Of a DNA stretch of 21,939 nucleotides, positions 6,289-18,912 are shown one piece after another. The DNA is from a virus, in IMG/VR virus record IMGVR_UViG_3300032291_002210, positions 1 through 21,939 of that record; one strand, 5' to 3'. A program made the position numbers and the translations under genes. Every line of letters starts with the position of its first letter. The first letter of the stretch is position 1. The notes beneath the pieces are model-generated. The model made no database searches and was not told the DNA's origin. It saw only the letters and a program-made list of their open reading frames with translations.

Positions 6289-6388
6289 TACTGCCCTGAG
6301 AAGTGATGAATGGTTGGGATAAGGCTGTCACCTTTCCTCTCAATTCTCCTAGAAAAGCACACTTGTGTCCTCTCAATGGGTTTTTAAA

Positions 6389-6562
6389 ATGGAGTGCGAT
6401 GAGCAATCTGACCGCTATGATATTTTGGAAACACGCTGGCATACACAAGAAGACTATCAATACTCCTATATACATAGCCATATGTTAAGTTCCTTGCTTT
6501 TTGAACACCCCTTGGGGCAACCGCAAACCAAGATTAAACTCCCCACAACTGAACCTGAATAA
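6389..6562 (+). CDS. small acidic ORF of unknown function
   Basis: This is a 57-residue ORF from ATG 6389; a GTG at 6365 would add eight residues. The product (MECDEQSDRYDILETRWHTQ at the start, LPTTEPE at the end) is acidic and unlike any family I know. The GTG frame meets a TAG at 6350, so it cannot extend further. No strong ribosome site is visible. An alternative ORF in another frame, 6303-6488, has a less protein-like composition and I prefer this one. It may also be non-genic sequence leading into the structured region. Confidence 0.4.
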   Translation: MECDEQSDRYDILETRWHTQEDYQYSYIHSHMLSSLLFEHPLGQPQTKIKLPTTEPE

Positions 6563-6569
6563 ATAAATA
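6558..6569 (+). promoter_or_regulatory. tandem AATAAATA boxes before structured region
   Basis: Two overlapping AATAAATA octamers (6558-6565 and 6562-6569) sit at the end of the small ORF. Read as a T4-type late promoter they would start a transcript near 6575-6580, at the left border of the hairpin-rich noncoding stretch. The A/T-richness of the sequence makes a chance match possible. Confidence 0.35.
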
Positions 6570-6959
6570 TATCAAGGCTTATATAGGCAACCCATACATT
6601 CTGAAACAACTGCACACAAGAGTTTAGATCACCCTCTGATTGATCAGCTATGGTTGTACAGCGACACAGTTAAGCTAGGACTGTCTAAACAAATGAGCAG
6701 TCAAGCAGAATGCCTTTGGAAACTTTGGGCGTTCTGGTTCACACACTCTGATGGCAACTCACCTGCCGTGTGTGAATGGAAGTGGTCTTCCTCCCCAGGT
6801 TGGTAGCATATGCAAACCCTCTACCATAATAGATTGATGTCGTGAGTCTCAATGAGAACTGTTTGGTATTATTTTACTAAAAGTTCTCCGTGGCTGACAA
6901 GCAAGTGTTTAATCATTCAAAAGAAATTCACAAAACGAACTTCTTGTAAAGAAGTGAGT

Positions 6960-6982
6960 AATACGAGCGTGTAGCTCGTATT
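6960..6982 (+). other. perfect hairpin AATACGAGC/GCTCGTATT
   Basis: A 9-bp perfect stem with a five-base GTGTA loop, directly after another 7-bp hairpin (6939-6955, GTA loop). Only a short, interrupted T-rich tail (ATTCAATCTAT) follows, so it could be a weak intrinsic terminator or one arm of the larger structured element. Confidence 0.65.
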
Positions 6983-7035
6983 CAATCTATCACACACAAT
7001 CACTGTCACAAATCACCACTGTGCAACGAGCTCTC

Positions 7036-7043
7036 TATAAATA
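7036..7043 (+). promoter_or_regulatory. TATAAATA late-promoter-like box
   Basis: An exact match to the T4 late promoter octamer TATAAATA, about 135 bases before the small terminase start. A transcript from here would begin near 7050, just at the 10-bp hairpin 7049-7109, giving the terminase message a structured leader. A second, weaker ACTAAATA lies at 7120-7127. Confidence 0.45.
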
Positions 7044-7177
7044 TTCAGCACTCACTGTCGCACATGATGCGGGGTAGTTTCTTGCCATTCTACCTTCCCA
7101 CAGTGAGTGTGTGAATCTGACTAAATAATCATACTCAATTATAAGAGGCGATCGCAACATAAGCGAATCCAACAATT

Positions 7178-16931: not shown

Positions 16932-17441
16932 ATGGCTTTTATTACTGTATCAAGCAACGTGATTAGTTTTGCTGACTACGACGACGTGGTGGCAAGAGAT
17001 CAACGACTATTTGATTCTAATGAAGGACTCACTGATGATCTCATTGAAGATCTATTAATCAGAGCCACGGAGCGTATTCTTTCCAAGCTACGCTCCAGCT
17101 CTTGGTGGAGATCATACTATATTACCAGAACCAGTGGCAGCACATTCAACACAATAGCAGATGTGCCAGCACTGAATGCAAATAAAATCAAAGGCAGACA
17201 GAATGACTTCACTGACCTTTGTGTTTATACAGCATTGAGCGAATTAGTTCTTCCAATGATTGCTGACTTTGGCAATGAAAATAACGCAGAGAGACAAAAA
17301 ATGGGTTATTACACTTCCAAAGCAGACATATTGTTGAGCGAACTGATCACTGCAGGTGATTGGTATGATTTTGATGGAGACAACACAGTTGAATCCACAG
17401 AAAAAACGCCAGGACAAGTGAGCTTGAAGAGAGTTAGATAG
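16932..17441 (+). CDS. head-tail connector
   Basis: The 169-residue protein follows the capsid gene with ribosome site AGAAGGAGATC. Its helical N-terminus (LTDDLIEDLLIRATERILSK) and SSWWRSYYI segment, then DLCVYTALSELVLPMIADF and a region containing YYTSKADILLSELI, correspond to the helix bundle of gp6/gp15-type connector proteins, which bind below the portal. Family assignment rests on pattern and position. The next gene begins two bases after its stop. Confidence 0.7.
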   Translation: MAFITVSSNVISFADYDDVVARDQRLFDSNEGLTDDLIEDLLIRATERILSKLRSSSWWRSYYITRTSGSTFNTIADVPALNANKIKGRQNDFTDLCVYTALSELVLPMIADFGNENNAERQKMGYYTSKADILLSELITAGDWYDFDGDNTVESTEKTPGQVSLKRVR

Positions 17442-17845: not shown

Positions 17846-18343
17846 ATGGCTTATATTAACCCAGCCCCAGGCACTGCATCACAGATAGTTTTAAAACTAG
17901 ATGTGGGTATTGCTGAAGGCACTTTAACATTAGGAGGTTCGCCTCTTAGTGTGCCAGCATTACAGGATATTACCATTAATGCTGCCAATGATGTGTTCAC
18001 TTGGTCACAATTGGACTCAACAGCAAAGAAACAGGTAGCCACAACTTCAACAAATTCTATTTCTATGAATTTGGTAGTTGATTCTACTACTTTCTTTGGC
18101 ACCACACTGGCATCTACGCAAACAGACACTGTGGCTGCACAAGGCTTATTAGGTATGAGCAGAAACAAAACTCTTGTGACTTTCAGTTTGAAATTCCAAG
18201 AAGGTGGCGCCACTGACCGTTTTATCAAAGGTCAAGGCTACATCACTGGACTTGCTCCAACCGTATCTGCAGATTCACCAGTTTGGGTATCACCTATCAC
18301 AATCACTGTGACAGGCGAATACACAGCTAGTGCCACTGAGTAA
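17846..18343 (+). CDS. major tail (tube) protein
   Basis: The 165-residue, Thr/Ser/Val-rich all-beta protein follows the terminator gene with AAGGAAA before its ATG. It has strands in the order expected of a tail-tube protein: QIVLKLDVGIAEGTLTLGG, TNSISMNLVVDS, KTLVTFSLKFQE, DRFIKGQGYITGLAPTVSAD and a final PITITVTGEYT, like lambda gpV and relatives. It is followed by a strong intrinsic terminator, common after a highly expressed tube gene, and then by chaperone genes. Confidence 0.8.
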   Translation: MAYINPAPGTASQIVLKLDVGIAEGTLTLGGSPLSVPALQDITINAANDVFTWSQLDSTAKKQVATTSTNSISMNLVVDSTTFFGTTLASTQTDTVAAQGLLGMSRNKTLVTFSLKFQEGGATDRFIKGQGYITGLAPTVSADSPVWVSPITITVTGEYTASATE

Positions 18344-18353
18344 TACAACAATT

Positions 18354-18383
18354 TAGAATAGGGGATTAATTTCCCCTATTTTA
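18354..18383 (+). terminator. intrinsic terminator after the tube gene
   Basis: The core stem AATAGGGG / CCCCTATT (18357-18364 with 18373-18380) extends to 11 bp with 18354-18356 and 18381-18383, has an eight-base A/T loop, and runs into TTTT. It ends the unit of structural genes after the tube protein, so less tape-measure and chaperone message is made. A promoter-like box lies just downstream. Confidence 0.85.
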
Positions 18384-18391
18384 AACACCAC

Positions 18392-18399
18392 GATAAATA
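18392..18399 (+). promoter_or_regulatory. GATAAATA late-promoter-like box
   Basis: An octamer of NATAAATA type lies nine bases after the terminator and 14 before ATG 18413. It would restart transcription for the chaperone and tail-tip genes. It is the clearest boundary case of the motif in the window. Confidence 0.45.
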
Positions 18400-18412
18400 A
18401 GAATATAGATTT

Positions 18413-18595
18413 ATGGATTTGATTGAGCACAAGAACACCAAAGAATTGCTACACAGTATGTTGGCAGAGATTGCCAAAGCAAAGAATGAAATCAAGTGTG
18501 CCCAAGCAGATCTCGTAAAAGCCACCAATAGATTGGGTTTCAGTCTATTGGTATTAAACAAACTGATCAACAGAGAGGAAGACCAACAGCAATGA
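18413..18595 (+). CDS. coiled-coil miniprotein before tail chaperone
   Basis: The 60-residue protein is a predicted coiled coil (HKNTKELLHSMLAEIAKAKN; then ADLVKATNRLGFSLLVLNKL) with a charged tail. No ribosome site is visible and a promoter-like box lies very close upstream. Its stop overlaps the chaperone start as ATGA. It may help tail assembly, as its place suggests, but I know no such family. Confidence 0.6.
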   Translation: MDLIEHKNTKELLHSMLAEIAKAKNEIKCAQADLVKATNRLGFSLLVLNKLINREEDQQQ

Positions 18596-18912
18596 AACTA
18601 TCACAATTAGCAGCCAAACCACAATTAATCAAAATAGAATTGGACGATGAAGAAATACGTCAAACCTATGGTGACGTTTTGGAATTTTATGTGTACGATC
18701 GCCAGGACATGGACACTTTTATCAAATTGGCCACACTGGACAGCAAAGATTTTAGCAAATTAACAGATTTAATCAATAGTTTGATATTGGATGAATCAGG
18801 TGCACCCATAGTGAAAGATGGCATGATATTGCCCAGCAATATCTTAATCAAAGCCATTCAAAAGGTTGTGGAAACGTTGGGAAAGCACCAGAAGCCAACT
18901 ATAACCAAATAG
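18592..18912 (+). CDS. tail assembly chaperone (gpG-like)
   Basis: The 106-residue product corresponds to lambda gpG, a cytosolic chaperone that coats the tape measure during tail assembly. It is acidic and helical with EIRQTYGDVLEFYVYD and a run LDSKDFSKLTDLINSLILDE; the C-terminus reads VVETLGKHQKPTITK. The order (tube, chaperone, tape measure) and a GGGAAAG slippery site in its last codons support the identity. A minority of ribosomes would shift at that site to make the longer form described separately. Confidence 0.82.
   Translation: MKLSQLAAKPQLIKIELDDEEIRQTYGDVLEFYVYDRQDMDTFIKLATLDSKDFSKLTDLINSLILDESGAPIVKDGMILPSNILIKAIQKVVETLGKHQKPTITK
18879..18885 (+). other. -1 ribosomal slippery site GGGAAAG
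   Basis: In the chaperone frame the bases read TTG GGA AAG, so the heptamer G-GGA-AAG matches the X-XXY-YYZ rule and is the same heptamer used for gpG/gpGT in lambda. The -1 frame is open from at least 18840 to the stop at 19164-19166, so a shift here makes a 191-residue fusion. Confidence 0.88.

Follow-up and report, generated by a model that had tools for sequence, protein, structure and literature searches.

A candidate family of large structured RNA near the tail-gene end of tailed-phage genomes

Large structured RNAs supported by covariation are rare. The known phage ones, GOLLD and ROOL, often lie near tRNA islands, form RNA cages and have no explained function, and the level of GOLLD rises during lysis (PMC12286853). 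The stretch considered here, positions 6558-7177 of a linear IMG/VR fragment of a tailed phage (IMGVR_UViG_3300032291_002210; 21,939 nucleotides, hereafter the window), precedes the small terminase gene (terS), and the initial annotation proposed it as a single 615-nt RNA of the same kind. Structured noncoding RNA was retained by our analysis but the single molecule was not: the stretch divides into a large element of about 415 nt (module A), a small one of about 73 nt (module B) and a terS leader from 7122. Since the open reading frame (ORF) at 6365-6562 is frameshifted in the otherwise near-identical contig L031 and absent from L003, the noncoding block probably spans 6289-7177 rather than starting at 6558. 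The likeness to GOLLD and ROOL stood as far as covarying stems and the lack of a conserved frame are concerned, but did not extend to family membership, as no Rfam covariance model matched. Judging from the comparison of eight phage sequences, 6575-6992 very likely encodes a structured RNA selected for base pairing, rather than a protein sequence.

Structure and covariation of module A

Besides the window, module A is present in seven other IMG/VR contigs (L003, L019, L031, L035, L037, L047 and L048) with 78-91% nucleotide identity. These homologues were found with neighbouring-protein searches and short sequence patterns, and compared by blastn. Pattern matches in L039-L046 (genome collection) and in L036 and L038 (viral) were rejected as chance, the match not extending, and a 37-nt covariance-model match in L053 was disregarded. 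The elements of A are the following.

6575 to 6992 (ends approximate), plus strand: module A, large structured noncoding RNA with seven homologous contigs, covariation and no conserved frame
6626-6632 with 6782-6788, plus strand: predicted closing helix of domain 1 (AGATCAC with GTGGTCT), invariant in all eight sequences
6706-6714 with 6728-6736, plus strand: stem PA with the invariant loop TTTGGAAACTTT; six of nine pairs changed on both sides, 100% of cells paired
6737-6746 with 6768-6777, plus strand: stem PB with the conserved CAACTCACCTG in its loop and compensatory changes
6801-6806 with 6821-6826, plus strand: stem PC with the nearly invariant loop ATATGCAAACCCT; four of six pairs changed on both sides, 100% paired
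6854 to 6888, plus strand: stem PD, GAGAACT/AGTTCTC and an inner helix; 91% of cells paired
6939 to 6982, plus strand: 3' hairpins PE (6939-6955) and PF (6960-6968 with 6974-6982)

The helices named at the outset are present, namely 6738/6768 (9 bp, perfect; within PB), 6854-6888 (PD), 6960/6974 (9 bp, perfect; PF) and 7049/7100 (10 bp, perfect), and the search for covariation in homologues revealed compensatory changes in the stems of A across the eight sequences. In an alignment not fitted to structure, the consensus fold of A contains 95 pairs, 15 of which are changed on both sides. Domain 2 (6789-6888), taken from the unfitted alignment, has 95.2% of its cells paired and 5 of 25 pairs (10 cells) changed on both sides, with a covariation score of 0.265 against 0.140 in shuffles, none of 500 reaching it. 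For domain 1 (6623-6788) the corresponding values are 97.7% and 9 of 32 pairs (18 cells), with a score of 0.297 against 0.130 (0 of 500), in an alignment refitted to a covariance model and hence biased towards structure; slid registers give nothing comparable. The refit corrected the MAFFT alignment, in which stem PA of L031 and L037 lay one base out of register.

PA reads AGAATGCC/GGGCGTTCT, AGAACGA/TCGTTCT or TGATGCAC/GTGCATCA depending on the phage, and PC reads GGTAG/CTACC, GTCAA/TTGAC or GGTTA/TAACC. PB changes from TTCACACAC/GTGTGTGAA to CTTTTTACAC/GTGTAAAAAG in L031 and L037, and 3 of its 10 pairs are changed on both sides despite the rows of these two contigs being about 2 nt out of register. 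Taking L047 and L048 together, PF has two pairs altered on both sides, and PD has one such pair in L035; the closing helix of domain 1, being invariant, is uninformative in this respect. The nearly invariant loops TTTGGAAACTTT, CAACTCACCTG and ATATGCAAACCCT sit inside variable stems.

No ORF of at least 60 amino acids exists within 6563-7177, in line with the initial annotation, which saw no credible ORF there. Among the homologues of A no frame is conserved: the open stretches differ and indels of 1, 2, 5, 8 and 14 nt occur, and these shifting frames and frame-breaking indels exclude a protein-coding A.

The whole stretch folds better than dinucleotide-shuffled sequence (z -4.7 on the plus and -3.1 on the minus strand, 20 shuffles), as do module A alone (z -3.8) and module B alone (z -3.2 and -4.2). 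However, when the window was tiled in 300-base pieces, three other tiles, mostly coding, gave z -4 to -6, so that folding energy alone is unspecific for 6558-7177 and was dropped as sole proof. One mostly coding tile, 17101-17400, folds very strongly (z -5.7), and another, 18301-18600 (z -5.0), includes the gap ahead of the gene at 18413, where a perfect hairpin of 14 bp lies at about 18352-18385.

Genomic context and transcription signals

The window encodes a tape-measure protein, a Terminase_6 large subunit, an SPP1-type portal and a capsid gene. By terminase, the named relatives closest to it are DSL-LC06, a complete metagenome-assembled phage of 29.8 kb (45.6% identity), together with several Pelagibacter phages (44%), HTVC111P and HTVC026P among them.

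Across all loci A is found close to where the tail genes end, and the gene downstream of it varies by phage: terS, a methyltransferase, ParB or a small ORF. About 280 bases including a small ORF separate A from B in L031, in L003 B is parted from terS by a DNA methyltransferase gene, and a ParB-like gene plus one more gene stand between the modules and terS in L019. L035, L047 and L048 come from another group of siphophages, which has a J-type tail protein; there A follows the last tail genes. In L037 A and the tail genes occupy opposite strands. No small terminase similar to that of the window was found near A in L035, L037, L047 or L048. In these same four contigs A is 78-81% identical to the window at the nucleotide level, although the few common proteins are only 31-46% identical. 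By this comparison, A is either exchanged between phages or very strongly constrained, and different tailed phages have received or kept it as a single unit.

A small conserved ORF (MSKKILDHSDCEMILLERTYN...) lies directly 3' of A in two phage groups (L035 12772-12984, L031 5286-5495 and L047), with no Pfam match for the L035 and L031 copies and no PHROG match for that of L035. The group I intron model RF00028 finds no match in A and one elsewhere in L035, at 138-403 within structural genes (87 bits).

Two elements mark the left border of A.

6559 to 6569, plus strand: ATAAATAAATA box, candidate T4-late-type promoter of A; the box recurs before A in L003 and L031
6576 to 6592, plus strand: AGGC(AA) repeats, presumed 5' end of RNA A; they recur after the box in relatives

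The border box is real, and similar ones precede B and terS. ATAAATA occurs eight times on the plus strand of the window (2.5 expected) and never on the minus strand (1.3 expected); six of the eight are intergenic and three lie inside the studied feature. As an observation in itself, these strand-specific and mostly intergenic boxes occur in a siphophage-type genome. A T4-type late sigma factor was not identified in the part of the proteome tested: ten DSL-LC06 proteins gave none, and the window is a fragment.

Behind the box, L003, L009, L015, L017, L035, L047, L048 and L092 have between two and four copies of AGGCA(A). AGGCAA repeats are also seen after sigma-70-like promoters (TTGACA...) before protein genes, in L064 (471), L069, L077, L092 (6046), L108 and L115; since they precede protein genes as well, the repeat may serve these phages as a leader signal of a general kind.

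Companion modules and blocks at matching positions

Four further elements accompany A, the last of them outside 6558-7177.

7036 to 7043, plus strand: TATAAATA box before B; the same box with TTCAG in L019, L047 and L048, and AATAAATACGCAG in L035
7044 to 7116, plus strand: module B, predicted small three-way-junction RNA (z -4.15 over 200 shuffles)
7122 to 7177, plus strand: terS leader with its own TAAATAATCATACTC box; it adjoins terS in L003 and the ParB-like gene in L019
6282 to 6350, plus strand: module C, a box and short hairpin element with GGCTGTCAC, recurring in relatives

Module B folds into a long outer stem (7049-7058/7100-7109) and two inner hairpins, of which one carries TTGCCATT in the loop. 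In L019, after the same TATAAATATTCAG, positions 415-510 hold an unrelated sequence with the same architecture of an outer stem and a pair of hairpins within it, and shorter hairpins occupy the place of B in L035, L047 and L048. Units of a box and a hairpin with TGCCAT in the loop recur in L068, L101, L103 and L105. Both A and B stand further upstream than the terS leader in L003 and L019.

The box of module C with GCTGTCAC (GCTATCAC in L047) is also found in L003, L031, L035, L047, L048, L009, L015 and L086. The GGCTGTCAC-loop element follows an ATAAATA or TAAATA box at L003 1466-1540, L035 12092-12165, L048 (minus strand) and L047, with further loci at L009 3598-3720, L015 6390-6500 and L086 1221-1320. 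In L086, L015 and L009 a long stem encloses a pair of hairpins, of which the second has TGCCAT in its loop. In L035 a run of T closes the outer stem, as in a terminator. This element looks like a separate small RNA family.

More distant relatives carry, at the matching genome position, a structured noncoding block that has no sequence similarity to A and is introduced by a box and AGGCA repeats (L009 3870-4462, L015 6815-7440 and L092 40-720). L017 690-1160 has the same box-and-AGGCA start but on that strand folds weakly (z -1.0). The complete phage DSL-LC06 (L116) has an unannotated gap of 755 bases at 573-1327 that folds with z -4.5, and the 5' part of this gap resembles L101 (75% over 96 bases) and L009; the paper describing this phage makes no mention of a noncoding RNA (PMC10611076). 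A further noncoding block lies at the matching position in L101 (930-1332), and the L009, L101 and DSL-LC06 blocks have a GGGGTTAAA...ACCCGCCC-like motif in common. Since the covariance model of domain 1 finds none of the blocks of L009, L015, L017, L092, L101 and DSL-LC06, they are positional analogues rather than demonstrated homologues of A, and possibly constitute a second large RNA family.

Readings of the locus and comparison with known systems

We consider it somewhat better than an even chance that A is a new family of large phage RNA, separate, late and acting in trans through its loops, with B as a second RNA. A would be transcribed late from its own ATAAATA-type promoter and fold into a multi-helix body displaying the three loops. 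Through these it could act in trans as a self-assembling or partner-binding scaffold, as has been proposed for GOLLD and ROOL, and not as a leader of the following gene. B would be a small three-way-junction RNA with its own box. This explanation is favoured because of the compensatory changes in PA, PB, PC and PF, the indels and the better-than-shuffle fold; because the downstream genes vary, A is on the opposite strand in L037 and is about 80% identical against 31-46% for proteins; because the ATAAATA boxes are one-sided and mostly intergenic; and because of the box-and-AGGCA structured blocks in L009, L015 and L092 and the DSL-LC06 gap. While structured RNA at A rests on observation and sequence comparison, a separate, late, trans-acting RNA is the most likely interpretation but unproven.

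Several points weigh against it. About three sequence types only are represented among the eight A sequences, and as the changes fall in these few types, independent covariation events are fewer than changed cells. Furthermore, some phages lack an intact ATAAATA before A (L035, L047 and L048 have ATATATA, and L037 has AATAAATT). No clear terminator was found 3' of A, so that read-through into B and terS is possible, and the trans role is argued by analogy.

An extension that we hold only tentatively, and regard as rather unlikely, is that A and its companions B and C form a late RNA-only particle or ribonucleoprotein, and that unrelated RNAs do the same job in L009, L015, L101 and DSL-LC06. 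If true, a superfamily of large phage RNAs would be hidden in streamlined aquatic phages.

Unlikely too is that A and B serve the late transcript in cis, as leader or antitermination elements controlling reading into downstream genes in the manner of the put sites of HK022 or of long 5' untranslated regions. Their place where the tail genes give way to the following block of genes, with B and the terS leader close behind A and no clear terminator between, would suit such a role, but the downstream gene is different in nearly every homologue, A in L037 faces away from the tail genes, and known put or nut sites are far shorter than A.

A DNA packaging or replication element (pac/cos or origin) with hairpins acting in DNA, or a phi29-like packaging RNA, is improbable. 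The stretch does adjoin terS in the window, and B, like the packaging RNA (pRNA) of phi29, is a three-way junction. However, the initial suggestion of pac/cos is weakened by the position of A, which is not next to terS in six of eight loci: it stands apart from the gene in L003 and L019, and L035, L037, L047 and L048 carry it at the tail-gene end. Moreover, the terminase of the window belongs to the Terminase_6 type and not to that of phi29, which uses pRNA, and the terminal loops are conserved while the stems covary, as expected of RNA.

Still harder to accept is that A inserts between phage genes as a mobile or selfish RNA, be it an intron, a ribozyme or a transposon-like element. The far greater likeness of A than of proteins between phages and the intron in L035 would be in keeping with it, but A interrupts no gene, is always near the tail-gene end, is not consistently accompanied by an endonuclease or transposase gene and matches no Rfam ribozyme or intron. 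Finally, that the stretch is a short protein gene that escaped detection, or that its hairpins arose by chance in AT-rich DNA, can hardly be credited. The equally strong folding of other tiles might speak for this reading, but it is contradicted by covariation above all 500 shuffles and all slid registers and by the lack of a common frame among homologues.

The genomes that carry A are very small (about 30 kb in the complete relative), and some 400-600 noncoding bases are a real cost to them. A is small enough for synthesis and imaging and has diverged versions in relatives. Since it is short, the genomes are small and such relatives exist, the question of what large phage RNAs do becomes more tractable.

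Module A has no match in the phage or plasmid records searched and is described nowhere in the open-access literature searched. In Rfam 15, nothing matches 6558-7177 at the gathering score, and at E 10 only chance matches appear (snoRNA, lncRNA, MS2). The GOLLD cage is a 14-mer and the ROOL cage is octameric. At about 415 nt, A differs from GOLLD (RF01998) in finding no match to its covariance model at either threshold, and the GOLLD trait of lying near or carrying tRNA genes is missing, as ARAGORN detects no tRNA in the window; from ROOL (RF03087) it differs likewise in having neither a model match nor a tRNA island. The phi29 pRNA is set apart by the other type of terminase in the window, by the lack of an Rfam match and by B not always being beside the terminase, although B, lying close to packaging genes, is likewise predicted to form a compact three-way junction. 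Like T4 late promoters (TATAAATA), the boxes that precede A, B, C and terS have the sequence (T)ATAAATA or a near variant of it. With GOLLD, A has in common a large structured noncoding RNA outside coding genes, probably late as GOLLD rises in lysis, and, like ROOL, it would be a large, stand-alone phage RNA without a known protein partner.
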